Below are positions 19,726-38,617 of a DNA stretch of 64,000 nucleotides, one piece after another. The stretch's first letter is position 1, and each line of letters begins with the position of its first letter. The stretch lies in the NCBI GenBank assembly GCA_902779875.1, contig CACZCX010000004.1:1-64000 (forward strand), given 5' to 3'. The notes below the pieces were generated by a model. That model searched no databases. It was not told the origin of the DNA and saw only the letters and a list, made by a program, of their open reading frames with translations. The stretch is from an uncultured Bacteroidales bacterium (lineage in GTDB: Bacteria; Bacteroidota; Bacteroidia; Bacteroidales; Bacteroidaceae). A program made the position numbers and the translations under genes.

Positions 19726-19733
19726 TATTTTTG
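19726..19733 (+). promoter_or_regulatory. -7 box for the GH9/exporter operon
   Basis: TATTTTTG matches TAnnTTTG and lies 30 nt before the chosen GH9 start at 19764. No other good promoter was found between here and 37.8 kb, so it may drive the whole eight-gene run. The -33 element is not evident. Confidence 0.5.
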
Positions 19734-19763
19734 GAATCACTTACGAAATCAAACTCCAACGAA

Positions 19764-22397
19764 ATGAAACGATTACTGCCAATTATTGTCACTTTGTGCA
19801 CTTTGGTCTCCTGTGCACCACCGAGCGAGACCGGAAAACTTGAAATCAATGACCTGGGCTATTTTGAGGCCAGAGGTGTAAATGTCCTGGTTTACTCCAA
19901 CAATTACCAGGGAATATTCTGTGATGAGAAGACGGCTGGAATAGAGCTTGTTCAGCGCGGTGTCCGTATCGCTACGGGCGGTGCCGTACGTCTTATGAAC
20001 ACTCCCGAGCAGTGGGACATCTACGCAACCCTTACAGACCGTGAGGTAGACACGCTGGGTAACCGCATCACATGCAAGTTCAGGTATCCCGACTACGACT
20101 TTGACTATGCCATAACCGTAAAACAGGACGGACGCGGCGTGCGTATGTCAGTCATACTGGACAAACCCCTTCCTGAGAACCTTACAGGTAAGGCGGGACT
20201 CAATATGGAGTTCTTTCCCGCAACATATTTCGGCAAGACCTATCTCATGGACGGCCAGTCGGAGATATTCCCCCGATATCCGTCAAGCACTACCGAGATG
20301 CGTCCCCTCAAGGAAAAGATCACCCAGTTCTACGGACTGTCCACTTTCGATGACCGCGGACGTGACGAGTTCATAGTACCGTCTCCCATATCGACCGGTC
20401 ACACTCTTGTCCTGGCTCCTGAGGATGACAACCTGCGTGTCAGGTTCGAGTCCGATACCGAGCTCAACCTCTACGACGGCCGCAACCTGTCACAGAACGG
20501 AACGTTCGTTGTACGTTCTTTTCTGCCCGCAGGCAAGACCGGAACTGTACTGGAGTGGTATATGGAACCCAACCAGTCACCTATCTGGATAAGGGAACCC
20601 AACATCGGCATATCACAGATTGGTTACACTCCCGCCCAGAAAAAGGTGGCAGTGATAGAGCTTGACCGCAATGACCGCGTGGCTCACAAGGCCAAGATAT
20701 ACCGCATCAACGCCGACGGCAGCACCAAGCTGGTACGCGAGCCCAAGGTAACGGAGTGGGGTGTGTTCTATGACCGATACAACTACGCCCAGTGCGATTT
20801 CAGCGATGTGCGTGAGCCCGGCACCTATCTGATAGAGTATAACGGCTATCGCTCCAATCCTTTCCCCATCAACGTAAACGTATATGAGGGCAAGTGGCAT
20901 AACACCATGGATGTATGGCTTCCTGTACAGATGGACCATATGCTGGTAAACGAGGCCTACCGTGTATGGCACGGACGTTCACATATGGACGATGCCGTCC
21001 AGGCTCCCACCAACTACCAGCAGCAGGACGGCTACCGTATGGGTAACACCACCAACACCAAATACAAGCCCTACGAGCATATTCCCGGCCTGGCAGTGGG
21101 CGCGTGGTATGATGCAGGTGACTTTGACATACAGTCGGGAACAGTGATAGGACTGACCAGCCAGCTGGCCGAGCTTTGGGACCTGATGCGTCCGGAGCGT
21201 GACGAGACATACATCGACCAGAAGACCCAGTTCGTGGATATACACCGCCCCGACGGTCTGCCCGATATGATACAGCAGATTGAGCACGGAGCCCTGAACC
21301 TCTGTGCCCAGATAGAGAACATAGGATTCATCGCAGGCGGTATAGTACAGGGCACCATGCACCAGTATCACCATCTGGGTGATGCCGTAACCATCACCGA
21401 CGGTTACATATATGATCCCAAACTCAAGCCATACGAGGTACGTGACAACCGTTATTCAGGTACTTTGGATGACCGTTTCGCATTCACCAACAATGGTGGC
21501 AATCCCATGGGTAACGTAAGCGTTTGCGCCGCTCTGGCGCAGGCCGCCCGAGTACTCAAACCTTATATACCTGCAACAGCCGAGCGTTGCCGCAAGCTGG
21601 CTCTCAAGCTTTGGAATGACATGGATAGTTATCTGGCACGTAATCCGGGTGCGATGCAGCAGAATGCCGGTCAGATGCGCGGCGGACGCGGAATGGGAGG
21701 TGACCGTTCACAGGCTGCCATCCAGCTCTGGCTGCTCACCGGCGATGACAAGTACAAGGATCTGTTCCTCCCGGGCGTGCTGCGTCAGATAGAGATGGCC
21801 AAGAACGCACCTCAGGGTGCCGATGACAACCGCACCATGGGTGGCAGCGCTATGCGCGCACCGCGTGTGAACCTGACGACCGCACTCTCGCTGCTGCCAT
21901 ATATGGATGAGGAGTTCAAGGAAAAGGTACGTGAGGTGATTCCCGTATTCGTGGAGGATGCCAAGCGCACTGCAGAGTCAACCCCGTACGGCGTGCCTGT
22001 AGCAGGCGGTACATGGGGCGGCAGCGAGCGCGTAATCAGCTGGGCTCAGAACAACTACATGGTATGGCGATATTTCCCCGATATGATTGATCCCGAGATG
22101 GTCCTTTCAGGTCTTAACTTCATATACGGCAACCATCCGTACTCGAACGTGTCATTCGTGACAGCAGTGGGCGTGAACTACAAGCAGGTGGCATACGGCA
22201 ATAACCGCGCCGACCACACCTTCATCCCCGGCGGTATAGCTCCGGGTCTGGTACTGCTCAAGCCCGACCTGCTGGAGCATAAGGATGACTATCCGTTCCT
22301 TTGGGGTGAGAACGAGTGCTGCACCAGAACCGTACCTTCATATGTGACCCTCTCCATAGGTGCGGAGGAGATAGCTGCAGCTATGAACAAACGATGA
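19764..22397 (+). CDS. Glycoside hydrolase family 9 lipoprotein
   Basis: An 877-residue cell-surface or periplasmic beta-glucanase candidate. The start at 19764 gives a clean lipoprotein signal with Cys17 in LVSC; the longer frame from 19665 has none and would run through the promoter. After an N-terminal beta-rich domain (about 30-275) comes a CelD_N-type Ig-like domain (IGISQIGYTPAQKKVAV onward, about 280-375), then the (alpha/alpha)6 catalytic domain. Catalytic Asp residues lie in DAGD (450-453), and the likely acid Glu851 is in WGENECC near the C-terminus. GH9 enzymes are mostly endo- or exo-glucanases; the exact substrate is unknown. It ends only 14 nt before an ABC ATPase gene, unlike usual polysaccharide-utilisation loci, and no SusC/SusD pair is present. 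Confidence 0.88.
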   Translation: MKRLLPIIVTLCTLVSCAPPSETGKLEINDLGYFEARGVNVLVYSNNYQGIFCDEKTAGIELVQRGVRIATGGAVRLMNTPEQWDIYATLTDREVDTLGNRITCKFRYPDYDFDYAITVKQDGRGVRMSVILDKPLPENLTGKAGLNMEFFPATYFGKTYLMDGQSEIFPRYPSSTTEMRPLKEKITQFYGLSTFDDRGRDEFIVPSPISTGHTLVLAPEDDNLRVRFESDTELNLYDGRNLSQNGTFVVRSFLPAGKTGTVLEWYMEPNQSPIWIREPNIGISQIGYTPAQKKVAVIELDRNDRVAHKAKIYRINADGSTKLVREPKVTEWGVFYDRYNYAQCDFSDVREPGTYLIEYNGYRSNPFPINVNVYEGKWHNTMDVWLPVQMDHMLVNEAYRVWHGRSHMDDAVQAPTNYQQQDGYRMGNTTNTKYKPYEHIPGLAVGAWYDAGDFDIQSGTVIGLTSQLAELWDLMRPERDETYIDQKTQFVDIHRPDGLPDMIQQIEHGALNLCAQIENIGFIAGGIVQGTMHQYHHLGDAVTITDGYIYDPKLKPYEVRDNRYSGTLDDRFAFTNNGGNPMGNVSVCAALAQAARVLKPYIPATAERCRKLALKLWNDMDSYLARNPGAMQQNAGQMRGGRGMGGDRSQAAIQLWLLTGDDKYKDLFLPGVLRQIEMAKNAPQGADDNRTMGGSAMRAPRVNLTTALSLLPYMDEEFKEKVREVIPVFVEDAKRTAESTPYGVPVAGGTWGGSERVISWAQNNYMVWRYFPDMIDPEMVLSGLNFIYGNHPYSNVSFVTAVGVNYKQVAYGNNRADHTFIPGGIAPGLVLLKPDLLEHKDDYPFLWGENECCTRTVPSYVTLSIGAEEIAAAMNKR

Positions 22398-22411: not shown

Positions 22412-23293
22412 ATGTCGATTACAATAAAAGGTTTAAGTCATTACTATCCTAACGGCAAGAAAGCGTTAAACAACATCAATCTGGAGATTCCTTCGGGCAT
22501 GTTCGGTCTTCTGGGACCTAACGGTGCCGGAAAGTCCACGCTGATGCGTATACTGGTAACCCTGATGGAACCCTCGGAAGGTGAGATCGATGTCTGCGGC
22601 TACGACATACGCACACAGCGTAAGGAGGTTAGGCGCATACTGGGATATCTGCCTCAGGATTTCCGCTTCTTTGCCAAATATAAGGTCCGTGAATTCCTGG
22701 ACTATGCTGCGGCTCTCTCCGGCATGACCAACTCGTCGGAACGGGACAAGGCAGTGGACAACATGCTTGAACAGGTGGGCCTGTATGAGGTGCGTGACCG
22801 TTATGCTCAGAACCTGTCGGGCGGTATGAAGAGACGTCTGGGTATAGCCCAGGCACTTATCCATCAGCCCAAGGTGCTGGTGGTGGACGAGCCTACCACC
22901 GGACTTGACCCCGAGGAGCGTATCAGGTTCCGTAACCTGCTCAGCGAGGCCAGCTCAAAGGATACCACGATCATACTCTCTACTCATATAGTAGGTGACA
23001 TATCGAGTTCATGTACCGAGATGGCCATGCTCAACCAGGGACAGGTCATGTTCCGCGGATCGCCTGCCGGAATGCTCAAGGAGACCGAGGGCAAGGTATG
23101 GCGTCTCAAGGTCAACAACGACCAGTATGCGGAGATTAATCAGAAATATGCGGTGATATCAACCATTCCGGACGGACTGGGCTGGGATATCCAGGTGGTG
23201 GCCAAGAGCCTTCCCGGGTATGATGCGGTGAACTATCCGCCGAACCTGGAGCATGCATATGTTTATTTTATGGAAGTTAAGGATAAGGATTGA
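22412..23293 (+). CDS. ABC-2 type transporter ATPase (module A)
   Basis: A 293-residue nucleotide-binding protein: Walker A GPNGAGKS (35-42), Q-loop YLPQDF, signature LSGGMK (135-140), Walker B with D159-E160, and H-loop STH. The C-terminal 70 residues are the variable domain of ABC-2 exporters. It pairs with the permease fusion whose ATG overlaps its stop codon (TGATG). Its core (SGMFGLLGPNGAGKST, LDPEERIRFRNLL) is closely related to the NBD fused to the RND pump at 32358, showing that the two ABC modules of the locus are paralogous. Confidence 0.95.
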   Translation: MSITIKGLSHYYPNGKKALNNINLEIPSGMFGLLGPNGAGKSTLMRILVTLMEPSEGEIDVCGYDIRTQRKEVRRILGYLPQDFRFFAKYKVREFLDYAAALSGMTNSSERDKAVDNMLEQVGLYEVRDRYAQNLSGGMKRRLGIAQALIHQPKVLVVDEPTTGLDPEERIRFRNLLSEASSKDTTIILSTHIVGDISSSCTEMAMLNQGQVMFRGSPAGMLKETEGKVWRLKVNNDQYAEINQKYAVISTIPDGLGWDIQVVAKSLPGYDAVNYPPNLEHAYVYFMEVKDKD

Positions 23294-26200
23294 TGGGAGG
23301 TATAACTAACATACGCATAGTAGCCAAGTACGAGACGAAACTGCTTGTCCGTGGCTGGTTCTTCAAGGTATTCTCTATTCTGTCACTGCTTGCGTCAGTG
23401 ATATTGGGATCCATATACATTCTCTCGCAGTTCCAAAGGCCGGAGATGGTGAACAGGTCGGTCATCCCCTACATATTCATGCTGGTCATGAACGTGGGAC
23501 AGGCCGTAGTGTCGGTGTTCCTTGCATCGGAATACCTTAAACGTGACAAGCAGCTCGATACGTCGGAGGTGTTCTATACCCGTCCGCTGAGCAATGCCGA
23601 GTATCTTCTGGGCAAGATGTGGGCCACGCTCAAGGTGTTCTTCATACTCGACCTGATCATAGCCGCGATAGCATTGGTCATGAGCCTCATCAAATACGGC
23701 TTTGAGCTGGACTATCTGGGTTATATATGGTATTTCCTGCTGCTCAATGTGCCTACGCTGGTATTCATAGTAGGTCTGTCGACCACACTCATGCTGCTGC
23801 TCAACAACCAGGCCATCACGATGGTCGTGCTGCTGGCCTACATAGGAGTGACGCTGTTCTACATAGACAACCTCTACTATTACCTGTTTGATTACATCGG
23901 ATTCAACCTGCCCATGCTCAAGTCCGTGGTAACCGGATTCAGCGGACTCTCCAGGCTCATCAACCACCGCATGTGCTATCTGCTTCTGGGAATGGGACTG
24001 ATACTGACCGATGTATCCCTGTTCCATCGTCTTGCCAACTCCCGTTACAGCCTGCTGCCCTGGCGTATTGCTGCAGCACTGCTGCTCCTGGGCGGACTTT
24101 TTGCAGGTTACAGGCACGTTCATATGTATAAGGTCGATGAGGGATTCAGGGCCGATATGATAGAACTTGACAACCGATACGTGCACATAGGAGGCGCCGT
24201 GGCTGACTCATGCCGTCTGGATGTCACCCAGAACGGTGACTCGCTCAGCGTAAAAGCCCATTTGACGGTAAGCCCCAAGGAGAACACCTCACAGCTGGTG
24301 TTCACCCTCAACCCCGGATTCGGTATCAGTAACGTGAGCGCTGCCGGACACAGCATGAGCTATGAGAGGCTCATGCACCTTATAGTACTGACATTCCCTG
24401 AGCCGCTGTCTGCCGGCGAGCCGGTGGAGCTCCTTATGGAGTACGGCGGTATGGCCGACGAGCGTATCTGTTATCTCGATATATCCGATGAGAAGATGGT
24501 TGAGAACAGCAAGGTTCTCTCCATGCTCAACGTAGGCAAGCGTTATCTTTTCCAGGACAGGGATTATACCATGCTCACTCCCGAGAGTTACTGGTATCCG
24601 CGTCCCGGTGTGGCATACAGTAACGAGAGCCCCGAGTGGCAGTTGTCATATTTTACCGGATTCACTGTCAGCGTGACTCCCAATCCCGGACTCAGGCCTA
24701 TCTCACAGGGCTCCTGCACAGCCAGTACCGACTCCACAATGTTCACATTCAGGCCGGAGTCACCGCTGCCGTCGGTATCGCTCATGATAGGAGACTACAG
24801 CCCCAAGTCAATCACCGTGGACTCCACTGAGTATACGGTATGGAAACTGGGGGAGTGGGACGACCAGTTCTCTGTGTTTGACTCCATCAGTGACACCGTA
24901 CCTTATATCATACGTGACACACGCCGTACCATGGAACTGAATGTTGACATGAAGTATCCGTTCAGCCGTTTCTCCATAATCGAGGTTCCGGCGCACTTCA
25001 CATCATACAAGCGCGTGTTCACATCGGCCTACGAACAGCTTCAGCCTGAGATGGCCCTCGTACATGAGAGAGGTTATGACATGAGGATGTTCCAGTTCGA
25101 GAACATGAAACGTCAGTACTCCGGCGGAATGGGTCCCGGCCGTCGCCGTAACCAGAACATGTCGGATAAGGAGATACTGAACAACATGCTGGTGAGCGCC
25201 GTATACTTCATGATGCAGTCCGGTGATTTCTCGGGTTCCAACCGTGGCGGACAGTTTACCATGACACAGGTTGACAATCCGTACTATTTCCGTCCGTTGT
25301 TCTACAACTTCAGGTACAACATCTATTCATCGGACTGGCCTATGGCAAACCGAATGGTGGAGTCCGTCACCACCGCAGGTACAGACCAGGGATCGGCCTG
25401 GATAAGACGTATGAACGGACTCTCCGAGGATGAGAAAGCCCTCATCCTGATGGGCAAGTACGGATTCGACCGAATCATGTCGGACCAGGAGTGGGAGGAC
25501 CTGGCGGATAATGCGCTGGCTCTCAAGACTAAGGATTTCTTTGCTCCCATATCGGCCGTGATGGGTTATGAGGCTATGGTTGATTCCATAACCGCATGGA
25601 GTAGGGAGAAGGAGTTCACCAACGTATCGTTTGACTGGATTCTGGACCGCATACAGAGTCATTCAGGCGTGAGTCTCAAGGATAAGATCGAGGCATGGAA
25701 TCAGCCTGCAAGGCTCTCCTGCTACAAGATAGGCACTCCCCAGCTTATAACCGTTACGACCGATACGGCCGATATCTACCAGGCGGAGGTAACGCTTGAG
25801 AACATATCGGACAACCCCGGTTACGTGAACCTGGAGTTTATGTTCTACGAGCTGGAGAACGCAGGTGACGAGGATAAACCCACCAGCATGGTGGTAAGCG
25901 TGGGAGCGCACGAGACCCGCAGGATCGTGACCCACTGGTTCAACTCTCCCAGCGTGATAACCATAAACACCATGCTCTCATCGAACCTGCCGCATGACGT
26001 AAGCCTGAACAATGCCGACTGGAGCACCAACATAGCCCAGGAGCTTACTCCCGAGGGCGTCTATACCATACGCGGTGGCGTGGACAACGCATCGGAGGGT
26101 GAGATCATCGTTGACAATGAGGATGCCAGCCTGTTCTCTCTGTCAAGACCGCTCAGGACCGGATACCTCTCCAAGTGGATAGACAAGGCCAGGGAGAACA

Positions 26201-26676
26201 AAAACGAGTTCGTATACGAGGGATTCTCCGATTGGCGTACCTACAGCCAGTGGACCCTTGTTACCGACCAGAAACTCTATGGTGACTACATACGCTCGGC
26301 TTATATCATATCGCCGGGTGACGGTGCCCAGTACGCACGCTGGAGCGTCCCCGTGCCGGTTGCAGGCGTATATGACGTCTTTTTCCATGTGTCAAGCAGT
26401 CTCTACGAGAACAACCGTAACCGCCGTTGGAACAATAACTTCAACAACGGACGTAACAACAACGGCCGCCGTGTGACCAATGACTACAACTTTGAGATAG
26501 AGCAGTTCAATATGCAGGACCGCGTATCGCTCAACATGTTCCGCGCCGAGGACGGCTGGAACCTGCTGGGAACGTTCCGGTTCGAGGCCGACACAGTGAA
26601 TGTAACGCTTAACAACCGCTCCGGCGTAACCGTGATTGTGGCCGATGCCGTTAAGCTGGTTAAACGGGAAAGATAA
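23293..26676 (+). CDS. ABC-2 permease fused to an M1-peptidase-like ectodomain and a golvesin-like domain
   Basis: A 1127-residue three-part protein. Residues 1 to about 270 form an ABC-2 type permease with six or more TM segments and a long first loop (SEYLKRDKQLDTSEVFYTRP). Residues 280-860 look like the extracytoplasmic part of the ABC permease/M1 aminopeptidase fusions known in Bacteroidota, but no HExxH zinc motif and no GxMEN motif can be found, so it is probably not an active peptidase. From about 937 (IIVDNEDASLF) to the end is a golvesin/xanthan-lyase C-terminal-like beta domain, ending VIVADAVKLVKR, with an Asn/Arg-rich loop near 1038-1065. The start ATG at 23293 overlaps the ATPase stop; a TTG 3 nt upstream is less likely. 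Confidence 0.82.
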   Translation: MGGITNIRIVAKYETKLLVRGWFFKVFSILSLLASVILGSIYILSQFQRPEMVNRSVIPYIFMLVMNVGQAVVSVFLASEYLKRDKQLDTSEVFYTRPLSNAEYLLGKMWATLKVFFILDLIIAAIALVMSLIKYGFELDYLGYIWYFLLLNVPTLVFIVGLSTTLMLLLNNQAITMVVLLAYIGVTLFYIDNLYYYLFDYIGFNLPMLKSVVTGFSGLSRLINHRMCYLLLGMGLILTDVSLFHRLANSRYSLLPWRIAAALLLLGGLFAGYRHVHMYKVDEGFRADMIELDNRYVHIGGAVADSCRLDVTQNGDSLSVKAHLTVSPKENTSQLVFTLNPGFGISNVSAAGHSMSYERLMHLIVLTFPEPLSAGEPVELLMEYGGMADERICYLDISDEKMVENSKVLSMLNVGKRYLFQDRDYTMLTPESYWYPRPGVAYSNESPEWQLSYFTGFTVSVTPNPGLRPISQGSCTASTDSTMFTFRPESPLPSVSLMIGDYSPKSITVDSTEYTVWKLGEWDDQFSVFDSISDTVPYIIRDTRRTMELNVDMKYPFSRFSIIEVPAHFTSYKRVFTSAYEQLQPEMALVHERGYDMRMFQFENMKRQYSGGMGPGRRRNQNMSDKEILNNMLVSAVYFMMQSGDFSGSNRGGQFTMTQVDNPYYFRPLFYNFRYNIYSSDWPMANRMVESVTTAGTDQGSAWIRRMNGLSEDEKALILMGKYGFDRIMSDQEWEDLADNALALKTKDFFAPISAVMGYEAMVDSITAWSREKEFTNVSFDWILDRIQSHSGVSLKDKIEAWNQPARLSCYKIGTPQLITVTTDTADIYQAEVTLENISDNPGYVNLEFMFYELENAGDEDKPTSMVVSVGAHETRRIVTHWFNSPSVITINTMLSSNLPHDVSLNNADWSTNIAQELTPEGVYTIRGGVDNASEGEIIVDNEDASLFSLSRPLRTGYLSKWIDKARENKNEFVYEGFSDWRTYSQWTLVTDQKLYGDYIRSAYIISPGDGAQYARWSVPVPVAGVYDVFFHVSSSLYENNRNRRWNNNFNNGRNNNGRRVTNDYNFEIEQFNMQDRVSLNMFRAEDGWNLLGTFRFEADTVNVTLNNRSGVTVIVADAVKLVKRER

Positions 26677-26691: not shown

Positions 26692-28182
26692 ATGAAACGA
26701 AAATTACTATTGATGACGGCAGTCATGGCGCTCACGACAGCGTCAGTGCCGGGGACCGATGCCAGGGCGCAGATAGTCCTTACTATGGAGGATGCGTTGG
26801 AGTACAGTTCACTTCACAACCCTGATCTGATCAACTCCCGTATGAGCATGGAACGTTACGAACAGAACCTGATTGCCCAGAAGGCGTCGCTCAAGTCGAG
26901 GTTCTCCCTTAACCTGCAGCCTATCACTTTCTCGCAGTCACGTCAGTTTGACAACCGTTTCTCCGACTGGTACACCAACCGCTCGCTGTCATCGTCGGGA
27001 ACATTCAGCATCTCTCAGCCCATTATCTGGACCGATGCCACTCTGTCACTGAACAACAGCCTGTCATGGCAGAGAAACGAGTCCTCTATCAACGGAGGTA
27101 CAAGCAACCAGGCATTCAGTAACAGTCTTTACCTTAGTCTGACACAGCCTATCTTCACCTACAACAGGACCAAGATGAACCTGCGCCAGATCGAGATGAA
27201 CTACGAGAACGCACGCATAAGCTACGCTTTGCAGCTGCTTAACGTGGAGCGCAACATCACAAGCCAGTTCTACAGCCTGTTCATGTCACAGCAGAACCTT
27301 GAGATCAGTGAGTCTGAGCTGGAGAATGCCGAGAAGAACTTCAATATCATCAAGGATAAGGTTGAGGCAGACCTGGTGACTAAGGATGAATACTACCAGG
27401 CAGAGCTTAACCTGGCCCAGTCCCGCTCAAGCCTTGAGAACCAGAGGGTAAGCCTGGAGAATGCCAAGGATAACTTCAAGCAGGCTCTCGGTATTCCTTT
27501 GGATGAGGATATAAGGGTGGTATGCGATGTTGAGGCTGAGCCGGTCCTGGTAAGCTTTGACAAGGCTCTTGAGAGTGCCACTACCACCAGACTGGAACTC
27601 AGACAGCGCGAGATATCACGCGAACAGCAGGAGATGTCCATGATACAGGTCAAGGACAATGACAGCTTTAGCGGTAACATATCACTTTCACTGGGTGTCA
27701 TGGGTGACGATCCGGATTTCCCGCATATCTATGACAATCCCACGAACAACCCGCGCGTATCGGTCTCATTCAGCGTACCTATCTTTGACTGGGGCGCACG
27801 CAAGGCTCGCATCAAGGCCGCTGAGATAGAACGCAAGATGTTCGAACTGAGCGCTGAGGAGGAGCTTAAGAGCATTGAGATGAACGTACGCAGCACCTGC
27901 CGCAGCCTTGACAACCTGCTCGGACAGATAGCGATCGCTGAGCAGAGTCAGAAAAACGCACAGCTTACCTATGACCTCAACGAGGAGCGTTACCGCAACG
28001 GCGAGCTCACAGGTATGCAGATGAACCAGTTCCAGACTCAGCTGTCCAACAGCAAGATGTCATACACACAGGCTATCATCAACTATAAGGTCCAGCTTCT
28101 GAACATCAAGATCCTGACCCTCTATGATTTTGAGAAGGATGCCCCCGTGGTACCCATAACCTATGATCGGAATAATAAGTAA
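26692..28182 (+). CDS. TolC-family outer membrane efflux channel
   Basis: A 496-residue protein with a signal peptide (cleavage near ARA|QIVLT, residue about 27) and the two-fold OEP repeat of long helical hairpins: MEDALEYSSLHNPDLINSR in repeat one and SFSVPIFDWGARKARIKAAE in repeat two. As a trimer it would form the outer membrane exit duct and periplasmic tunnel for the RND/ABC pumps encoded next to it. Unlike many in the phylum it has no lipobox. It starts 15 nt after the permease fusion and 12 nt before the adaptor gene. Confidence 0.93.
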   Translation: MKRKLLLMTAVMALTTASVPGTDARAQIVLTMEDALEYSSLHNPDLINSRMSMERYEQNLIAQKASLKSRFSLNLQPITFSQSRQFDNRFSDWYTNRSLSSSGTFSISQPIIWTDATLSLNNSLSWQRNESSINGGTSNQAFSNSLYLSLTQPIFTYNRTKMNLRQIEMNYENARISYALQLLNVERNITSQFYSLFMSQQNLEISESELENAEKNFNIIKDKVEADLVTKDEYYQAELNLAQSRSSLENQRVSLENAKDNFKQALGIPLDEDIRVVCDVEAEPVLVSFDKALESATTTRLELRQREISREQQEMSMIQVKDNDSFSGNISLSLGVMGDDPDFPHIYDNPTNNPRVSVSFSVPIFDWGARKARIKAAEIERKMFELSAEEELKSIEMNVRSTCRSLDNLLGQIAIAEQSQKNAQLTYDLNEERYRNGELTGMQMNQFQTQLSNSKMSYTQAIINYKVQLLNIKILTLYDFEKDAPVVPITYDRNNK

Positions 28183-28194: not shown

Positions 28195-29253
28195 ATGAAA
28201 TCAGGAATCAGCGCAGTAACACTGACAGCGCTTGCACTCCTCACAGTAGGGTGCAGGCAGGAGAACACCATGAACCGTAATGAGATACCCACACCGGTAT
28301 CAGTATCGGACATCACCTACGGTTCAATAAGCAGGATATTCACCACCAACAGCACGGCCGTATCGAATGCCGAGGCTGAGCTCACTACCGAGATGGCCGG
28401 TAAGTACCACCTCCAGAAGAACCCCGCCACCGGCAAGCCCTACAAGCTGGGTGACAAGGTAAAGAAGGGTGCCCTCATAATACGTATTGAGGACAAGTCA
28501 TATGAGAACGGCATCTCTATAGAGACCAAGCGTCTCAACCTGGAGCTGGCAGAGCAGGAGCAGGTCAAGACCAAGTCACTCTATGACAAGGGCGGTGCCA
28601 CTCTTACCGAGGTCAAGAACTCCGATATCAAGATCATGAACTCGCGTCTGGATTATGAGAACGCCGAGATGAATCTTGAGAAGATGAACATACGCGCTCC
28701 GTTTGACGGCGTCATAGTGAACCTGCCTCATTTCTCGAACGAGGCCAAGGTCAACAGCGGTACATCGGTCGTAACCATCATGGACTACAGCTCCATGCTG
28801 CTTGAGATCAACCTGCCTGAGAGCGCCATCAGTGAGGTTAAGGTAGGCCAGAAGGCTAACATAACCCATTATACGCTCCCCGGTGACACCATCATAGGTG
28901 AGATCACCGAGCTCTCTCCGGCCATCAGCTCAGAGACACGTACCTTCAAGGGCAAACTCGTTATCGACAACAGGAACCTGCTCATAAGACCGGGTATGTT
29001 CGTAAAGGCCGATATCGTAACCGAGAGCCACGAGTCGACAATCGTAATCCCCAAGAACATAGTACGCAACGAGCGTAACCGCCGCACCGTATTCGTAGTG
29101 GACCAGGGCATAGCAAGAGCCAAGCAGGTAAGACTGGGCCTGGAGGAGAAGAACCGCGTAGAGGTACTCGGCGGACTTGATAAGGACGACCAGCTGGTAA
29201 TCCGTGGTTTTGAGACCCTGAGAGACGGTTCTAAGGTTAAGATTCAAAGATAA
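28195..29253 (+). CDS. RND/HlyD-type membrane-fusion adaptor lipoprotein
   Basis: A 352-residue periplasmic adaptor. The N-terminus is a lipoprotein signal with Cys20 in LTVGC. It then has a lipoyl-like domain split around a short alpha-hairpin (LNLELAEQEQVKTKSLYDKGGATLTEV), the return strand MNIRAPFDGVIVN, a beta-barrel domain and a membrane-proximal domain with RPGMFVKADIV. It bridges the inner-membrane pumps and the TolC channel. There is one adaptor for two RND permeases, as in the MdtABC/MuxABC systems. It lies 12 nt from its neighbours on both sides. Confidence 0.93.
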   Translation: MKSGISAVTLTALALLTVGCRQENTMNRNEIPTPVSVSDITYGSISRIFTTNSTAVSNAEAELTTEMAGKYHLQKNPATGKPYKLGDKVKKGALIIRIEDKSYENGISIETKRLNLELAEQEQVKTKSLYDKGGATLTEVKNSDIKIMNSRLDYENAEMNLEKMNIRAPFDGVIVNLPHFSNEAKVNSGTSVVTIMDYSSMLLEINLPESAISEVKVGQKANITHYTLPGDTIIGEITELSPAISSETRTFKGKLVIDNRNLLIRPGMFVKADIVTESHESTIVIPKNIVRNERNRRTVFVVDQGIARAKQVRLGLEEKNRVEVLGGLDKDDQLVIRGFETLRDGSKVKIQR

Positions 29254-29265: not shown

Positions 29266-32200
29266 ATGAAAAAACTGGTAAGTTGGGCAGTCCGTAACCC
29301 GGTCACCGTCACCATGGCGGTACTGGCTATACTGCTGCTCGGAAAAATATCATATGACAGGCTGAGCGTGGAACTGCTCCCGAGCATGAACAGCCCGCGT
29401 CTGTTCGTTGAGATAGATGCAGGCGAGCGTCCGCCCGAAGAGATAGAGAAACAGTTCGTCCGCAGCATGGAATCCCAGATAGCGCGTCAGAGTGACGTGC
29501 GCTCGGTATCATCGGTCGTAAAGGTAGGTACTGCCCGTATAACCGTCGAGTACGCCTGGAGAAAGAACATGGACGAGGCGTTCCTGGATCTGGAGAAAGC
29601 CATGAGCAGTTTCTCGCAGGACAGCCGTGTCACGGACCTCAGGATATCGCAGAAGGATCCCACCACAGCTCCTATCATGATCATCGGTTTCTCCAACCCG
29701 GATATAACCGATATGGCCGAGCTGCGCAAGGTGGCTGACTCATATGTATGCAACGAACTCATGAGAGTGGAGGGCGTGGCCGATGTCTCACTGGCCGGTG
29801 ACGAGTTCACCAACCTAATCATCGAGGCCGATCCCTACAAGCTCCAGGCTTTCGGCATAACCGTTGACAATATCTCGTCACGTATCCAGGAGAACAACCA
29901 GAGGGTATCGGGCGGAAGGATATCGGAACAGGGTTTCCAGTATCTGGTGACCGGTTCCAACACCCTGACCGATGAGTTCGCGTTCGGCAATATCATTGTA
30001 GGTTACAAGAACACCGAGGCCGGACAGGGCCGTCAGATAGGTGAGTTCGAGTCGGCCAGCATGGCCCCCATCTACCTGCGTGACGTAGCCGACATCCGCT
30101 TTGAGAACCGCGAGCCTGAGAATATAGTAAGGGTGAATGGCAACCGCAGCATAGGCATATCGGTATTCAAGGAGATGGACTACAACACCGTCAAGGCTGT
30201 TGACGGAGTCAAGACAAGCCTTGCCAAGATACAGAAGTCTCTGCCCGGTTATGATTTCAGGATCATAAGCGACCAGGCGACCTTCATCAACAACTCCATA
30301 GGTGAGGTCAAGAACAGCGCCCTGCTGGGTATACTGCTGGCTGTAATCGTGCTGTTCGTGTTCCTGCGCAGGATAGGGACCACCCTTATTGTGGCTGTGT
30401 CAATACCTGTATCCATCATCGCTACCTTCAACCTCATGTTCTTCAGCGGTCTGACCATAAACATACTGACCCTGGGAGGACTTGCGCTAGGTGCGGGTAT
30501 GCTTGTGGATAACGCCATCGTGGTCATAGAGAGCATATTCCGTAACCAGGAACGTGGGCTCTCGGTCCGTGATGCTGCTGTGACCGGAACATCCGAGGTT
30601 GCCGGTGCCGTATCGGCATCGACCCTTACCACCATCGTGGTGTTCCTGCCTATCGTATATCTGCACGGAGCCACAGGTGAGCTGTTCAAGGATGAGGCGT
30701 GGACGGTGACATTCTCACTGATATCGTCACTCTTTGTGGCCATCCTGGTCATTCCTACGCTTTATGAGCGCATATTCTCACGTAAGAAAAGACAGCCGGT
30801 CAAGAATTTCAGCTCAATCAACATCACGGGATACTCCCAGTTCCTCAAGAAACTGGTTGAGAAACGCTGGATGGTCATACTCTGCTCACTTATCCTGGTC
30901 GTAGGAACTGTGTTCCTGCTCCCGTTCGTGGGTACCGAGTTCATGCCTAAGACCGATGCGAACACCATCAACGTGAAGGTCCGTATGGCCGAGGGTACCA
31001 GTCTGGAGCGTACATCATCGACGCTTGAGAGCATTGAGAACCTGGTATACGACCTCTCACAGGATCCCGATTGCGTCATCTACACCCATGTGGGCCCCGG
31101 TGCGTCATCACAGAACCTGGATTTTGAGGGCGAGAATACAGCTACCCTCAAGATACAGCTCTCCAAGGCATCGGCCGTAACCCCCGATTATCTTACCGAG
31201 GTGCTCTCGTCATACATAGACGGAGTGGAGGGTATGGAACTCTCATTCACACAGGATGAAAACTCCCTGAACTCCATGATGGGAACCGAGGATGCTCCGC
31301 TCGTTGTGGAGATAAAGGGTGAGGACCTGGACCTTCTTGCAGCCCTGACTGCTCAGGTCAAGACCGCGGTTGACTCAATCGACTGCCTCTATAACGTGGA
31401 GAGCTCGCTGGCAGGCGGTGCACCGGAGATCATCATCACCGTGGACCGTGCCCTGGCAGGTATGAACAATATCAACGTATCGACCATAATCACCCAGATT
31501 CAGCAGCATCTCGCCGGTCGTGAAGCCGGTCAGATGGACTACAAGGGCGATATGAGGGATATCAGTATCAAGGTTCCCGGCGTGTCACTCTCTGACCTGA
31601 ACAATATGGTCATTACATCGGGCCAGAAGGATTTCCGCCTTGTGGAGCTCGCTCAGATAAGCGAGAGCACCGCACCCAAGGAGATATCACGACTCAACCA
31701 GAACCGTGTGACCCGCGTCACTGCCGATATAGACGAGTCCGTATCACTTGACAAGGCTGCACAGCGCACAAGGGAGGCCGTTCAGGGTATTGAACTGCCT
31801 CAGAACTACTCCATAACCGTGACAGGTGAGGAGGAGCGCAGAGCCGAATCCATGAACAGCCTGCTGTTGGCACTCGTACTGTCAATAGTACTGGTATACA
31901 TGGTTATGGCATCGCAGTTCGAGTCACTGCTGCATCCGTTCACCATCCTGCTTACCATTCCTCTGGCATTGGTGGGAGCGGTGCTTATGTTCCTTGTGAC
32001 AGGCATAACAGTGAATATAATGGGTATCATAGGTATGGTGATGCTTGCAGGTATCGCGGTTAACAACTCCATCATACTTGTAGACCGTATAGGACAGCTC
32101 AAGGAGTCTGGACTGAGTCTTACCGATGCCATCGCCGAGGCAGGACAGCAGCGAATCCGTCCTATCCTCATGACCAGCCTTACCACCATCCTGGCACTCG

Positions 32201-32361
32201 TGCCTATGGCACTTGGACTGGGCGACGGTGCATCACTGAGCTCACCTATGGCCATTGCCGTGATAGGCGGTCTGTTCACATCGACTCTTCTGAGCCTTGT
32301 GGTGATACCTTGTGTTTATTACGTATTTGAGAGCGCCAAGATTAGAATAACCGGAAAATGA
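29266..32361 (+). CDS. RND efflux permease (HAE-1-like), first of two
   Basis: A 1031-residue RND permease with 12 predicted TM helices and two large periplasmic loops. The TM4 motif GMLVDNAIVVIES has Asp415, equivalent to AcrB Asp407, with Asn in place of the second Asp, as is common in this branch. The second half shows the TM10 motif GIAVNNSIILVDR. Substrates are unknown. It probably pairs with the next RND protein as a heteromeric pump, and its stop overlaps the start of that gene by 4 nt (ATGA). Confidence 0.93.
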   Translation: MKKLVSWAVRNPVTVTMAVLAILLLGKISYDRLSVELLPSMNSPRLFVEIDAGERPPEEIEKQFVRSMESQIARQSDVRSVSSVVKVGTARITVEYAWRKNMDEAFLDLEKAMSSFSQDSRVTDLRISQKDPTTAPIMIIGFSNPDITDMAELRKVADSYVCNELMRVEGVADVSLAGDEFTNLIIEADPYKLQAFGITVDNISSRIQENNQRVSGGRISEQGFQYLVTGSNTLTDEFAFGNIIVGYKNTEAGQGRQIGEFESASMAPIYLRDVADIRFENREPENIVRVNGNRSIGISVFKEMDYNTVKAVDGVKTSLAKIQKSLPGYDFRIISDQATFINNSIGEVKNSALLGILLAVIVLFVFLRRIGTTLIVAVSIPVSIIATFNLMFFSGLTINILTLGGLALGAGMLVDNAIVVIESIFRNQERGLSVRDAAVTGTSEVAGAVSASTLTTIVVFLPIVYLHGATGELFKDEAWTVTFSLISSLFVAILVIPTLYERIFSRKKRQPVKNFSSINITGYSQFLKKLVEKRWMVILCSLILVVGTVFLLPFVGTEFMPKTDANTINVKVRMAEGTSLERTSSTLESIENLVYDLSQDPDCVIYTHVGPGASSQNLDFEGENTATLKIQLSKASAVTPDYLTEVLSSYIDGVEGMELSFTQDENSLNSMMGTEDAPLVVEIKGEDLDLLAALTAQVKTAVDSIDCLYNVESSLAGGAPEIIITVDRALAGMNNINVSTIITQIQQHLAGREAGQMDYKGDMRDISIKVPGVSLSDLNNMVITSGQKDFRLVELAQISESTAPKEISRLNQNRVTRVTADIDESVSLDKAAQRTREAVQGIELPQNYSITVTGEEERRAESMNSLLLALVLSIVLVYMVMASQFESLLHPFTILLTIPLALVGAVLMFLVTGITVNIMGIIGMVMLAGIAVNNSIILVDRIGQLKESGLSLTDAIAEAGQQRIRPILMTSLTTILALVPMALGLGDGASLSSPMAIAVIGGLFTSTLLSLVVIPCVYYVFESAKIRITGK

Positions 32362-35300
32362 AGTTTAAGTCTTTCATTGACAGAAGAGTAACTATATGCA
32401 TGCTTCTGGTGGCGCTCACGCTGCTGGGATACTTCTCGTACAAGCAGTTGCCGGTTGAGCTGCTGCCCAATACGGAACTGCCCCAGCTTTATGTGACGGC
32501 CTCGTCAAGAAGCGACCTCACTCCGGCTTACATGGAGCAGCAGGTGGTCATACCCCTTGAGGGAGCCATCAGCGCTGTAGGTGGTGTGGAGAACATGGAA
32601 TCGACGGCATCGGGCCGACAGGGATCCATAAGGGTTGACTTCAAGCGTGGAACCAACCTCAAGATGACCACTGTCAAGCTACAGGAGAAAATCAGTTCCA
32701 TACGTTCCGATTTTCCGTCCGATGTCACAGTCAATGTCCAACAGGCCAATGTAAACGGAATCAGCAACCAGTTCATGTCGCTTCAGGTGCGTGGATCGGG
32801 TGGTGTGGACCGTCTGAGAGCCATCGTGGACAAGGATGTGGTTCCCAGACTTGAGAGTATTGACGGCATTGCCGGAGTTACTGTGTATGGCGGTAGGGTC
32901 AAGTCCATTGAGATAAGGTCCAACCCTGAGGCCATGCAGGCTCTGCATATATCGAACTCACAGATAAGCCAGGCTCTGAGCCAGTACAACCAGGATCGTA
33001 CGTTCCTGGGCTTTATCAGTGAGCCCGACAAGAAGTATTACGTGCAGCTTGACGCCAACTATGATGACGTCTCACAGGTAGAGAACCTGGTGGTGGCACA
33101 GGGCCCCGTCTATCTTAAGAACGTGGCCACGGTGTTCTTTGACTACAAGGAGGAGACTACCATAAGCCGTGTGAACGGAATGGACGCCATCTCCGTGTCA
33201 CTGGTGAACGGATCGGGTGAGAACCTTCTGGATCTCTCCAAGCGTACGCTTAAGCGCATAGAGGAGGTGAACCGCGAGGTTGCCGCCCAGGACCTTCAGC
33301 TGGTCATCCAGTCCAACTCGGCCGATCAGATAAGCAACAACATATCGCAGATCGTGAAACTGGCCCTGATAGGAGGTCTTCTGGCTATAGTGGTACTGTG
33401 GTTCTTCCTTCAGAACTTCAGCCTGGTGTTTTTCATCGCACTCTCCATCCCGGTTTCAATATTATCGGCATTCAACATATTCTATGCGGCCGATGTCTCC
33501 ATAAATACCCTTACCCTGATAGGTATGGCTCTGGCTATCGGTATGTTGCTGGATAGCAGTATAGTGGTGCTGGAGAACATATACCGTCTGGCCTCTATGG
33601 GAATGCCGCCCAGACTGGCGGCCCTGCAGGGTGTCAAGGAGGTGCGTAAGGCCCTTATAGCCTCTACGCTAACCACCATTACGGTCTTCCTGCCGTTCGT
33701 ATTCTCCGATGAGCCCATGATCAAGCTCCTTGGTAGGAACATAGGTATCTCCATCATATCCACGCTCATATTCTCGCTGTTCGTGGCTGTGACGTTCATA
33801 CCTATGGCGACAGCAGCCATGATGGAACGCGGAGGCGGCGTGAGCGTGTTCTTCCGCAAGATGTCCATTCACGACCGTCCGCTGCAGATGTACTCCACAC
33901 TGCTCAAGACCTGTCTGCGTGATCCCGGACCTACCATCGGAACGGCAGTAGCGGTGCTTGTGATAGCCTTCATATTCGCGCTTTCACGTAACACCGGTCA
34001 GAACCGTCAGATAGACAGTGATCGTATCAACGTGAACATAACCATGCCCAGCGGAAGCACCATTGAGGAGACCGATGCAGCCACTGCCACACTTGAGGAG
34101 CGTTTGGACAGCCTTGTCTACAAGAAGGATGTCATAAGCCGCATCCAGGAGGACCAGGCCTCGATCACCGTGACGCTCAAGGAGGGTTACAACAAGAAGG
34201 GTGGTGTGACCATCAGCCAGCTTGTGGAGCAGCTCAGCGATGAGCTTGCCCTGGAGAATGAGATCGATGTACGTGTAACCCCGGGTTATGCCCGCGGCAA
34301 CCAGAGCGCATCGGGACTCAGCTCCCTGACCCGTTTCATGAGCGTGCTCGGCGTGGGCGACAATACCGAGAGAATAGTTGTGAAGGGTTCCGATACCGAG
34401 ACCATGCGTGTGGTATCCAACAACCTGCGATACTATCTGGAACAGTTGGATTTTGTACGTGACGTCAGGGTCGACAACCCGGGCGGACGCCGTGAGGTGC
34501 AGCTCACATTCGATCCCGTGACGCTGGCATCGTACAACATATCCAACCAGGCTATCACCACCGCGCTCGGTTCGTTGAACCGCTCCACCAGCACGGGAGC
34601 CAGCTTCAAGGTAGGTACTGATGAGTATGACATCGTCATCATGGAGGACCTTACCGAGGAAGAGGAGGAGATGGGACGTTGGGAGAAGACTCTCGATGAC
34701 CTGCGTCGTGTGGTTGTGACCGATGCAAACGGCGGCACACACGAGCTCCAGCAGCTTGCCAATATCCGTCTGAGCCGCGGCCCGTCGGAGGTAAGGCGCG
34801 TGAACCGTGACCGCAGGGTCAACGTGACCTATTCCATATCACAGAGTGAGGACCTGCCCAAGGATGTGCTTGACGGCTATCACGAGCAGATTGATGACCT
34901 GATCGCCAACTACAACCTGCCTTCGGGTCTGGCACTCGAGGCACAGCGCGGCGATGACTCCACCAGCGAGTTCAAGTTCCTGATACTGGCATCGATCATA
35001 CTCATATTCATGATATTGGCATCGGCCTTCGAGTCACTCACAACGCCTATTGTATTGCTGTTCTCCATACCTCTGGCCGCCATCGGTTCGCTGCTCGCCC
35101 TGCTCCTGTCGGGTAACAGCCTGATGAACGCCAACACCCTGACCGGATTCCTTATCCTGCTGGGTATAGTGGTGAACAACGGTATCATACTCATAGACTA
35201 CTCGTCGACACTGCGCCGTCGTGGCTATGGCCGTATGAGAGCCATCATGACCAGCGGTTACTCGCGTCTGAGACCTATCTGTATAACCACAATCACTACG

Positions 35301-37058
35301 ATTGTCACGCTCATACCTATGGCTATGGGCGACAACGAGTATGCGGGTGCCATAGGTGCTCCGTTCGCCCTCACGGTTATAGGAGGTCTGACCTTCTCGG
35401 CCGTGCTTACGCTTCTGCTCATTCCTACGCTCTATATATCGTTCGAGAACATGAGGGCATGGTATAAGGGACTTGGCCGATACACCCATATCCTGCATGC
35501 CATAATCTACGGAGTGGGCCTCATCATGATATTTACCGGTGTGAGCGGAATATTCCGTATACTGCTCTACATCATAATCCTGACGGTTGCCATACCCGGT
35601 GTTACCTACTTCGTGAAGAGCTCCGTAAGGATAGCGCGCAAGAACATAGTAAGCTCCGACGAGCCTATAGTCATTGAGGTACGCAACCTCGTAAAGGTCT
35701 ATGACTGGTACAGCCTGTTCCTGCGTCAGTGGAGGAGCGGACTCAACATACGCCGCCGCCTGGGTCTTGCACGCACATACCACCACGCAAAGGATTTCAT
35801 CGGTCTTTTGTGGCAGGTAGTGGTGTTCGGATACACAGGCTATCTGGCAGGATGGTATTTTGAGAAACAGTTCTGGATACTGCTTATGACAATCATAACC
35901 CTGGCCGGCATTAACAACATCATCAAGGCCGTCCTGGAGTATGTGTCATACAAGTTCAAGCATGGAGGCGGCATAACCATAAAGATAAAGAAGATACTCT
36001 ACTGGGTACTGCCCGCATGCGCCATGCTGTTCCTGAACACCCGCATTGAGAGCAAGGGAGTGATGGTATTCATTGCTATCGTATGGATACTGGGACTCTG
36101 CATCCGCAAGACATCGGACTACCTCTATGTGAACAACATAAACGTGGAGCGTCTCAAGGGCGAGACTGCCGGAATAAGACGCGCATGGTTCCTGTTCGTA
36201 AAGAGCATTCCCATCATCGGCAAGCGCAAGAAACCGTTCAAGGCCCTGCGTGGTGTGTCGTTTGAGATACACAGCGGTATGTTCGGCCTGCTTGGCCCGA
36301 ACGGAGCCGGTAAGTCCACGTTCATGCGTATCGTGACCGGTATCCTGCGTCAGAGCTACGGTACGGTATTCATTAACGGTATGGACACCCTCAAGTACAG
36401 GGAGGAGCTCCAGAGCCTTATAGGATTCCTGCCTCAGGAGTTCGGCATGTACGAGTCCATGAGCGCATGGGATTTCCTGGATTACCAGGCCATACTCAAG
36501 GGTATTACCGATGAGACCGTCCGTAAGGAGAGACTGGAATACGTGCTCACAGCCGTACATATGTATGAGCAGAGGAACTCTGAGATAGGTTCGTTCTCAG
36601 GCGGTATGAAGCAGCGTATAGGTATTGCGCTCATACTGCTCAACCTGCCGCGCATACTTGTGGTCGATGAGCCTACAGCCGGTCTTGACCCCAGAGAGCG
36701 TATACGTTTCCGTAACCTGCTTGTAGAGCTGAGCCGTGACCGTATCGTCATATTCTCGACCCATATCATTGAGGATATCGCAAGCTCCTGTAACCAGGTG
36801 GTTGTCATTGAGAAGGGTACCCTCAAGTACTTTGGACTGCCCTCCGAGATGGTCAACCTGGCCAAGGATAAGGTCTGGCTGTTTGACATTGAGGCCTCGC
36901 GTCTGGGTGAACTTGACGAGAAGCTTATTGCCAACCACATCCAGGACGGTGACAAGATCAAGGTTCGTTACATATCGCCTGAGTGTCCCTTCCCGGGAGC
37001 TGAGAAGGCTGAACCCAACCTTGAGGATGCATACCTATGTCTATTAAAGAATCTTTAA
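32358..37058 (+). CDS. RND permease fused to an ABC ATPase that is split by a membrane insertion
   Basis: A 1566-residue protein. Residues 1 to about 1030 are a full RND permease; TM4 has LLDSSIVVLENI with Asp399, and TM10 has GIVVNNGIILIDY. Two more TM helices follow (about 1038-1085). Residues 1104-1118 (IVIEVRNLVKVYDWY) read as the first strand and A-loop Tyr of an ABC NBD. About 173 residues with four predicted TM helices then intervene. The NBD resumes at 1293 (PFKALRGVSFEIHSGMFG) with Walker A GPNGAGKS (1313-1320), Q-loop FLPQEF, signature FSGGMK (1413-1418), D1437-E1438 and STH. All added TM counts are even, so the NBD stays cytosolic. The NBD is a paralogue of the one at 22412. One continuous ORF; no frameshift seen. 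Confidence 0.9.
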   Translation: MKFKSFIDRRVTICMLLVALTLLGYFSYKQLPVELLPNTELPQLYVTASSRSDLTPAYMEQQVVIPLEGAISAVGGVENMESTASGRQGSIRVDFKRGTNLKMTTVKLQEKISSIRSDFPSDVTVNVQQANVNGISNQFMSLQVRGSGGVDRLRAIVDKDVVPRLESIDGIAGVTVYGGRVKSIEIRSNPEAMQALHISNSQISQALSQYNQDRTFLGFISEPDKKYYVQLDANYDDVSQVENLVVAQGPVYLKNVATVFFDYKEETTISRVNGMDAISVSLVNGSGENLLDLSKRTLKRIEEVNREVAAQDLQLVIQSNSADQISNNISQIVKLALIGGLLAIVVLWFFLQNFSLVFFIALSIPVSILSAFNIFYAADVSINTLTLIGMALAIGMLLDSSIVVLENIYRLASMGMPPRLAALQGVKEVRKALIASTLTTITVFLPFVFSDEPMIKLLGRNIGISIISTLIFSLFVAVTFIPMATAAMMERGGGVSVFFRKMSIHDRPLQMYSTLLKTCLRDPGPTIGTAVAVLVIAFIFALSRNTGQNRQIDSDRINVNITMPSGSTIEETDAATATLEERLDSLVYKKDVISRIQEDQASITVTLKEGYNKKGGVTISQLVEQLSDELALENEIDVRVTPGYARGNQSASGLSSLTRFMSVLGVGDNTERIVVKGSDTETMRVVSNNLRYYLEQLDFVRDVRVDNPGGRREVQLTFDPVTLASYNISNQAITTALGSLNRSTSTGASFKVGTDEYDIVIMEDLTEEEEEMGRWEKTLDDLRRVVVTDANGGTHELQQLANIRLSRGPSEVRRVNRDRRVNVTYSISQSEDLPKDVLDGYHEQIDDLIANYNLPSGLALEAQRGDDSTSEFKFLILASIILIFMILASAFESLTTPIVLLFSIPLAAIGSLLALLLSGNSLMNANTLTGFLILLGIVVNNGIILIDYSSTLRRRGYGRMRAIMTSGYSRLRPICITTITTIVTLIPMAMGDNEYAGAIGAPFALTVIGGLTFSAVLTLLLIPTLYISFENMRAWYKGLGRYTHILHAIIYGVGLIMIFTGVSGIFRILLYIIILTVAIPGVTYFVKSSVRIARKNIVSSDEPIVIEVRNLVKVYDWYSLFLRQWRSGLNIRRRLGLARTYHHAKDFIGLLWQVVVFGYTGYLAGWYFEKQFWILLMTIITLAGINNIIKAVLEYVSYKFKHGGGITIKIKKILYWVLPACAMLFLNTRIESKGVMVFIAIVWILGLCIRKTSDYLYVNNINVERLKGETAGIRRAWFLFVKSIPIIGKRKKPFKALRGVSFEIHSGMFGLLGPNGAGKSTFMRIVTGILRQSYGTVFINGMDTLKYREELQSLIGFLPQEFGMYESMSAWDFLDYQAILKGITDETVRKERLEYVLTAVHMYEQRNSEIGSFSGGMKQRIGIALILLNLPRILVVDEPTAGLDPRERIRFRNLLVELSRDRIVIFSTHIIEDIASSCNQVVVIEKGTLKYFGLPSEMVNLAKDKVWLFDIEASRLGELDEKLIANHIQDGDKIKVRYISPECPFPGAEKAEPNLEDAYLCLLKNL

Positions 37059-37071: not shown

Positions 37072-37785
37072 ATGTCAGTATTTAAGACAGTGAAATCTTT
37101 CGCCCGATTGAGCGCATACAATATGAGGATAATATTCTCAGGCAAGTTCATATGGTTCCTGCTTGTAGGACTTGCCCTGTTTTTCTTCCTCATGTTCACC
37201 GCCGCCTCAAGGGGCTCCACATTGAGTCATGGCATGGTATATAGCCAGCTTATAATACCCGGACTCCTGCTGGTGTTCTATCCGGCATGTTTCGGTATCC
37301 AGAATGACGCCGATCACCGCATACTGGAGCTTCTGTTCGGTATTCCCAACTACATGTATAAGGTATGGCTGTTCCGCCTGGTCATGATCTACGTGGAGGT
37401 CTACCTTATCCTTGTGGCTTATGCCTTCCTGGCCAGGATCCTGCTATATCCTGTGCAGCCGTTCTCCATGGCGGCACAGCTTATGATACCGGTTATGCTG
37501 TTCGGTAACCTGGCGTTTCTCTATTCTACGCTCATACGTAACGGAAACGCCGCTGCCGTGCTCTCCATACTCACGGTGATACTGGCGCTCATACTGGCCA
37601 GCCTGCCTCTTGTCAAGAACAAGGTGTGGGATGTTACGATAAATCCCTATGAGGAACCCGAGAATATAAATGCAGCCATTTGGAGCCTGATCCTTTTAAA
37701 GAACAGGCTCCTCATGGTGGTCTCGGGAATAGTATTCCTTATGTCGGGACTTCTGGGACTGCAGAACCGCGGAAAGTTCCTCTGA
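37072..37785 (+). CDS. ABC-2 type permease (module B)
   Basis: A 237-residue integral membrane protein with about six TM helices (for example FIWFLLVGLALFFFLMFTA near the start and AVLSILTVILALILASLPLV later). The polar loop GIQNDADHRILELLFGIP after TM2 is typical of ABC-2 permeases. No ATPase gene of its own follows; the most likely partner is the ABC domain at the C-terminus of the RND fusion, which ends 13 nt upstream. It is the last gene of the locus and converges with the GIN-domain gene; no clear terminator is seen in the 28-nt gap. Confidence 0.85.
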   Translation: MSVFKTVKSFARLSAYNMRIIFSGKFIWFLLVGLALFFFLMFTAASRGSTLSHGMVYSQLIIPGLLLVFYPACFGIQNDADHRILELLFGIPNYMYKVWLFRLVMIYVEVYLILVAYAFLARILLYPVQPFSMAAQLMIPVMLFGNLAFLYSTLIRNGNAAAVLSILTVILALILASLPLVKNKVWDVTINPYEEPENINAAIWSLILLKNRLLMVVSGIVFLMSGLLGLQNRGKFL

Positions 37786-37813: not shown

Positions 37814-38617
37814 TTACCATCTGATCGTTCCGCTTCCGGTCTTGCTCTTGGAGATATGCCTGAAACTAAGGTTTCCGGTAATATCGCCGGAGCCGATGAC
37901 CCGGGCGACAGCGTTACGTGTGGAACCGCTTATCCTTACGTCGCCTGAACCGGCAACCGATGCGGAGAGTTCGTTCTCTATATCAACGTCGCTGATGCTT
38001 ACGTCACCTGAACCGGCTACAGATACCTCCAGGTTCTCTGCAACTATGCGGCGTGCGGTCCAGTCACCTGATCCTGCCAGGCTGACCTTAGCCTGATTTG
38101 CTGCTATCGAACCGAGTTTGATATCGCCTGAACCGGCTACGCTTGATGTAAGGTCGGCGCACTCAATGTTACGGGCTGTGATATCGCCGCTGCCGGTTAC
38201 ACGCAGTGTGAGGTCGTTGTCAGTCTCAATATCGCCGGAACAGATTATGCTGCCGCTTCCGGTCATGACAAGTTCCGATATATCGGGAGAACCCACTCTT
38301 ACGCGGAGTCTTACGTTGCGGTATCTCATAGGTTCAAGAGAGATGTCAAGCACACCGCGGTTCACGCGGGTATAGACGCGGCGCAGATACTCCTCATCAC
38401 CCTCAACGGTAACATAGCAGGAACGTGACTGCTCGTAGATAACGTCAAAGGGGCACGAACAGGTGATGGCCTCGAAATCGCGAACGTTACGGTCCTCCAT
38501 CTCACAGTCCGAGAAGTCCATGTTCTTGTTGGAGAGCCATACAATCTGTGCATCAACCATATCACAGGAGTGAAAAACAGCGCAGAGCGCCAGGATAAGA
38601 AATGCTTTTACTTTCAT
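37814..38617 (-). CDS. GIN-domain (DUF2807) exported protein
   Basis: A 267-residue protein with a signal sequence and a probable lipobox at Cys18 (FHSC; not ideal). After a segment ending CSCPFDVIYEQ comes a beta-helix of eight repeats marked by GSGD/GSGS (MTGSGSI, VTGSGDI, VAGSGDI, LAGSGDW and so on). This is the putative auto-transporter adhesin head GIN domain, common in Bacteroidota, thought to be exported; its function is not established. Single-gene unit, convergent with the exporter locus. Confidence 0.85.
   Translation of the reverse strand: MKVKAFLILALCAVFHSCDMVDAQIVWLSNKNMDFSDCEMEDRNVRDFEAITCSCPFDVIYEQSRSCYVTVEGDEEYLRRVYTRVNRGVLDISLEPMRYRNVRLRVRVGSPDISELVMTGSGSIICSGDIETDNDLTLRVTGSGDITARNIECADLTSSVAGSGDIKLGSIAANQAKVSLAGSGDWTARRIVAENLEVSVAGSGDVSISDVDIENELSASVAGSGDVRISGSTRNAVARVIGSGDITGNLSFRHISKSKTGSGTIRW

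Follow-up and report, generated by a model that had tools for sequence, protein, structure and literature searches.

The closest described systems each share part of the locus analysed here. In MdtABC and MuxABC, two different RND permeases and an adaptor are encoded in one operon, as in the present case. To our knowledge, neither MdtB nor MdtC carries an ABC domain. The available parts of two papers describe MdtBC as a heterotrimer of B2C composition, with power proposed to come from MdtB and binding to be the part of MdtC. Relay mutations matter more in MdtB, where they impair the pump (PMC4338810, PMC7015380). In our locus, by comparison, two relay residues are missing from both RND subunits. 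MdtB is the best PDB sequence match of each (RND1 and RND2). MacAB-TolC is similar in that an ATP-powered inner membrane component is combined with an adaptor and TolC. However, MacB, which has the type VII fold and works by mechanotransmission, is without an RND porter, whereas the fusion described here has one. A distinct fold and a unique mechanism are ascribed to MacB in the available part of PMC5985334.

Unlike in the type V ABC-2 exporters (NosFY, DrrAB, GldA-type), the NBD here forms part of an RND polypeptide, and an insertion with four predicted membrane helices divides it. An ABC-2 permease fused to an M1 peptidase is classified as TC 3.A.1.145 (available part of PMC3924187). This architecture resembles that of gene 2 of our operon, but it has no RND part, and the homologues of gene 2 match Peptidase_M1 only below the cut-off (up to E 4.2e-4). 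AcrB and other ordinary HAE-1 RND permeases share the full-length ACR_tran domain with both operon RNDs. The fusion differs from them in lacking the equivalents of D408 and K940 and in having six extra predicted membrane helices and an ABC NBD at the C-terminus. We also weighed Vibrio VarABCDEF as a mix of ABC and RND and dropped it, as it is an ABC tripartite pump. By fold, every piece of the fusion belongs to a known family. In the open-licence PMC literature, to which the search was confined, no paper was found that describes the RND-ABC fusion or its operon in its title or the opening of its abstract.

Layout of the operon and occurrence of the fusion

The window, a stretch of 64,000 nucleotides from an uncultured Bacteroidales bacterium, holds seven genes on one strand (Table 1). 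Their intergenic gaps are only -4 to 15 bases, with overlaps of 4 bases between genes 1 and 2 and between genes 5 and 6, and because of this spacing we infer that genes 1-7 form one transcription unit. Promoter and terminator scans were at chance level (20 versus 19.4 expected, and 14 versus 12.0).

Table 1. Positions of the genes and of the parts of the fused chain in the window
Feature	Position	Strand	Evidence
GH9-type glycosidase gene	19665-22397	+	Glyco_hydro_9 E 1.2e-12, CelD_N E 4.6e-10; ends 14 bases upstream of gene 1
Gene 1, stand-alone ABC ATPase, GldA/DrrA-like, 293 aa	22412..23293	+	Pfam ABC_tran E 5.9e-34
Gene 2, ABC-2-like permease with large extra domain and Golvesin_C end	23290..26676	+	Golvesin_C E 1.1e-9
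Gene 3, TolC-type outer membrane channel	26692..28182	+	Pfam OEP E 7.2e-47
Gene 4, periplasmic adaptor (membrane fusion protein)	28195..29253	+	Pfam HlyD_D23 E 3.1e-22
Gene 5, RND1, unfused RND permease	29266..32361	+	ACR_tran E 1.4e-216, residues 5-1021
RND1 D415-N416 in TM4	30508-30513	+	AcrB D407-D408 columns
RND1 N933 in TM10	32062-32064	+	AcrB K940 column
Gene 6, RND2-ABC fusion, 1566 aa	32358..37058	+	ORF, Pfam
RND2 permease part, residues 1-1029	32358..35444	+	ACR_tran 4-1029
RND2 D399-S400 in TM4	33552..33557	+	AcrB D407-D408 columns; second Asp lost
RND2 N940 in TM10	35175..35177	+	AcrB K940 column; Lys lost
Linker, residues 1030-1103, two extra predicted membrane helices	35445..35666	+	Model helices 1041-1061 and 1065-1089; hydropathy
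NBD strand 1 and A-loop Tyr1115, residues 1104-1118	35667..35711	+	Model strand 1106-1115; aligned with N-terminal residues of solved NBDs
Insertion between NBD strands 1 and 2, residues 1119-1293, four predicted membrane helices	35712..36236	+	Model
Remaining NBD, residues 1294-1566	36237..37055	+	Motif counts, 63 rows
Gene 7, type V (ABC-2) half permease, 237 aa, without own NBD	37072..37785	+	
Protein with repeated GSGDI/GSGDV motifs	37814-38617	-	

The seven-gene operon, with both its adaptor and its TolC gene, is conserved among relatives. In loci with room for the neighbouring gene, RND1 lies before the fusion in 47 of 47 and gene 7 after it in 47 of 47. In the case of gene 1, the NCBIfam models GldA and DrrA both match under their cut-offs. 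Besides gene 2, this ATPase might conceivably also act for gene 7. The TTG start of gene 2 is the choice of the ORF caller. Relatives of gene 2 match ABC2_membrane_2 at up to E 1.7e-6, and its extra domain is M1-peptidase-like at the sub-threshold level given above.

Some observations were made at the borders of the operon and in single relatives. At locus L065, a stretch 86.6% identical to the GH9-type gene region also lies upstream of gene 1, and at L115 and L116 the ORFs upstream of gene 1 have different beginnings. The TolC position of one locus (L118:10392-11914, genome G446) is matched by tblastn and has no long ORF on the gene strand, possibly through a frameshift or an assembly error. 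The repeat protein downstream of gene 7, which we take to be of an adhesin-like type, is not part of the operon, since its homologue lies kilobases away in several relatives.

Gene 6 is a single uninterrupted ORF of 1566 codons, in which Pfam finds a whole RND permease (PF00873) followed by an ABC ATPase (ABC_tran, residues 1297-1441). An RND permease and an ABC ATPase are thus in one chain, which confirms the fusion that the original prediction had read from this ORF. Neither the stop codon nor the frameshift between the two parts that would have spoken against it was found. The same frame is open in many independent genomes, and an artefact of assembly or frameshift was rejected on this ground.

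The search of protein databases that had been proposed at the outset found RND and ABC_tran in one chain in at least 120 proteins. Among the 120 of 4930 matches listed, 119 are 1544-1580 aa long and one is a 940-aa partial, and all 120 have both ACR_tran and ABC_tran. Ten of these listed entries are named: eight are called 'efflux RND transporter permease subunit', one 'multidrug efflux pump subunit AcrB/ABC-type multidrug transport system ATPase subunit' and one 'ATP-binding cassette domain-containing protein'. With eight of ten names referring to RND only, the fused ATPase is easily overlooked. One of the matching proteins listed is labelled Rikenellaceae.

Among 37 genomes of the same genus (our own included), the full-length fused frame was found in 24, was broken over contigs in two and did not show in 11. 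With the insertion as query, matches were found in 52 of 393 genomes and 33 of 207 genera of the order, which is about one in eight genomes. Open frames of 1515-1640 aa were present in 44 of these 52; in the other eight (504-1334 aa) the frames run off the contig, and in each the frame upstream of the match is as long as the remaining contig sequence allows. In the phylum, six of 395 genomes were counted, all at E 3.3e-41 or better. Another class of the phylum gave two of 245, both among these six. A tally at E 0.001 or better would give 207 of 395 phylum genomes; we did not use it because the remaining matches listed (E 8.9e-8 and weaker) always include the Walker A end of the query and their frames are mostly ordinary ABC ATPases. 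In the 393 genomes of the order, the insertion occurs only in long fused frames or in frames running off a contig, and an unfused form of it was seen in none of the 395 phylum, 393 order and 245 other-class genomes. An apparent unfused RND2 in genome G074 was rejected, as its contig ends within the RND part.

Named genomes accounted for 41 loci. Ordinary Firmicutes ABC genes make up two of them; the remaining 39 are from Bacteroidales MAGs (two named Tannerella sp.), many of which come from the rumen or elsewhere in the gut. A tree was built of 67 NBDs, 64 of them different. In it, a branch with support of 100/100 sets the 32 fused NBDs apart on one side, so that a single fusion event would be enough to explain them. 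The clade of gene 1 is their sister (94/86), where long branches meet and the tree program gave a warning; a derivation of the fused NBD from gene 1 is not claimed.

The proton relay of the RND subunits

In AcrB, the relay consists of D407 and D408 on TM4 and K940 on TM10, with R971 and T978 (available part of PMC8277102). The available part of PMC4359379 reports D407N, D408N, K940A and R971A each as inactive in proton translocation and efflux. The equivalents of D408 and K940 are absent from both RND subunits of the operon. RND1 has D-N on TM4 and N on TM10 in all 48 loci (43 distinct sequences). In the case of RND2, 66 of the 72 rows have letters in TM4 (44 distinct), and the pair is D-(S/N/T) in all 66; TM10 has N in 72 of 72 (50 distinct). 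Locus L110, which has a stop, is included in the counts, and L113 and L114, which are RND1 of the operons in G074 and G067, were counted with RND1 and not with the controls. Judged from the aligned columns, both permeases carry substitutions equal or similar to those that silence AcrB at two relay sites. Since the complete D407-D408/K940 relay was looked for and found in neither RND1 nor RND2, we do not call them ordinary RND antiporters.

For comparison, 52 control RNDs of the order were hand-picked from non-operon places ranked by likeness to the fusion, a choice that leans towards fusion-like RNDs; D-D and K were found in 50 of them and D-N and N in two. The latter two, L103 (G084:C16) and L157 (G073:C17), are unfused and lie in TolC-adaptor-RND clusters, and no ABC gene was seen in the 15-17 kb covered for each. 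RNDs with D-N and N can thus exist without an ABC partner, presumably with another coupling. Relay loss alone therefore does not show that ATP is the drive, and its value as a marker of ABC partnership is weakened.

Other charged positions were compared over the hand-marked helices TM2-6 and TM8-12. Both operon RNDs keep the Asp in the D407 column and two arginines in TM11. Columns 352 (Arg) and 1030 (Glu), both at helix ends, are mostly charged in the operon RNDs and mostly not in the controls, and no charged operon-specific column was found beside the relay in these helices. It is conceivable from the alignment that columns 352 and 1030 provide a new proton path.

These data bear on the possibility that the fusion is a scaffold only. 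The fused NBD would then power gene 7, the RND trimer would be driven by protons through a non-canonical relay, and the fusion would do no more than link the two machines so that substrate can pass from one to the other; gene fusions often replace co-localisation. The retained D407 and TM11 Arg equivalents would suit such an arrangement, as would the unfused D-N and N RNDs with no ABC gene nearby, but for both operon subunits, all sequences that have letters at these sites show both substitutions, compared with two of 52 controls, and single changes at these sites inactivate AcrB (PMC4359379, available part). Altogether, we regard a mere scaffold as somewhat unlikely.

The interrupted ABC domain and its neighbouring permease

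The motifs of the NBD lie at residues 1313-1321 (Walker A), 1357-1363 (Q-loop), 1414-1420 (signature), 1433-1440 (Walker B) and 1467-1471 (H-loop). Together with the A-loop, the D-loop and the Walker B Glu, they are intact in 63 of 63 fused rows, in agreement with what had been claimed for this NBD. N1110, V1112, K1113 and Y1115 of strand 1, and W1152 and W1173 of the insertion, are likewise each present in 63 of 63 rows.

In the predicted NBD model, which is not a solved structure, 231 of 235 LptB residues align at 2.5 A when the alignment begins at residue 1104. The NBD fold including strand 1 is thus predicted to be present and to be interrupted. Residues 1104-1118, which the original prediction had assigned to the first NBD strand, take this place in the model, and the membrane-spanning insertion that it had placed inside the NBD appears as four predicted helices. 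With a pTM of just 0.64, the AlphaFold model leaves the position of the helix bundle relative to the NBD uncertain. Gene 7 is predicted to have the ABC-2 membrane-domain fold of type V; it had no Pfam match at E up to 1 in a search whose HMMER filters drop most weak matches.

Lying right after the A-loop in the model, the insertion could act as a nucleotide sensor that signals to the RND part, as might be expected if the NBD bound ATP to gate or assemble the pump and not to power each cycle. Such a role of the NBD is improbable, given that the hydrolytic residues, the Walker B Glu and the H-loop His among them, do not vary across 63 rows and that an ABC-2 permease follows the fusion wherever room exists. 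In a type V ABC-2 fold, the substrate normally crosses the membrane domain. Although its outer partners would be those of MacAB-TolC, a MacB-like device in which ATP hydrolysis moves the periplasmic RND porter and gene 7 is a lever with no substrate passage is very improbable in view of the type V fold predicted for gene 7.

A possible ATP-driven exporter

A takeover by ATP would be the simplest account of the locus, because an NBD that looks competent for hydrolysis is joined to an RND with an incomplete relay and adjoins an ABC-2 permease that has no NBD. It could well be, and from sequence we judge the matter evenly balanced, that the RND2-ABC fusion is the ATP-driven motor of a tripartite exporter, together with a two to one RND core and a gene 7 module. 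In the core, two fused RND2 chains would assemble with one RND1 into a heterotrimer like MdtB2C1; we infer this stoichiometry. The genes of the two RND paralogues lie side by side in all 47 loci that have room. With the fused RND2 in the two-copy role, two NBDs would lie under the trimer, as a dimeric ABC-2 module needs. These tethered NBDs would dimerise under two copies of gene 7, so that a single type V ABC module is complete. The effect of binding and hydrolysing ATP would be relayed through the helices of the insertion, and either the substrate would be carried through the inner membrane and reach the RND porter, or the porter cycle would be driven directly. The substrate, at a guess and by analogy with ABC-2 relatives lipids or envelope-active compounds, would leave through the adaptor and the TolC channel. 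Speaking against this reading are the retained D407 and TM11 Arg equivalents, the two controls with D-N and N, the conceivable proton path at columns 352 and 1030 and the chance that gene 1 acts for gene 7.

The dual energy coupling or scaffold of the original prediction is partly supported. Tentatively, the locus may represent a tripartite exporter of a new class. Its RND trimer would have lost the proton motor and be powered by ATP, with an ABC half-motor in the chains of two of the three protomers; the trimer would be welded to a dimeric ABC-2 transporter, and the ATPase fold would be threaded through the membrane by four helices.

Tripartite pumps are sorted by their motor, namely RND with protons, ABC with ATP, and MFS, and the fusion straddles this division in one polypeptide. 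It makes testable whether an RND porter can be driven by something other than protonation of TM4, and its split NBD is a stringent test of the interruption that an ABC fold can tolerate. If the proposed mechanism is true, the RND2-ABC fusion systems of some gut Bacteroidota would show a trimer and a dimer coupled in nature and would be a new way of powering RND-class exporters.
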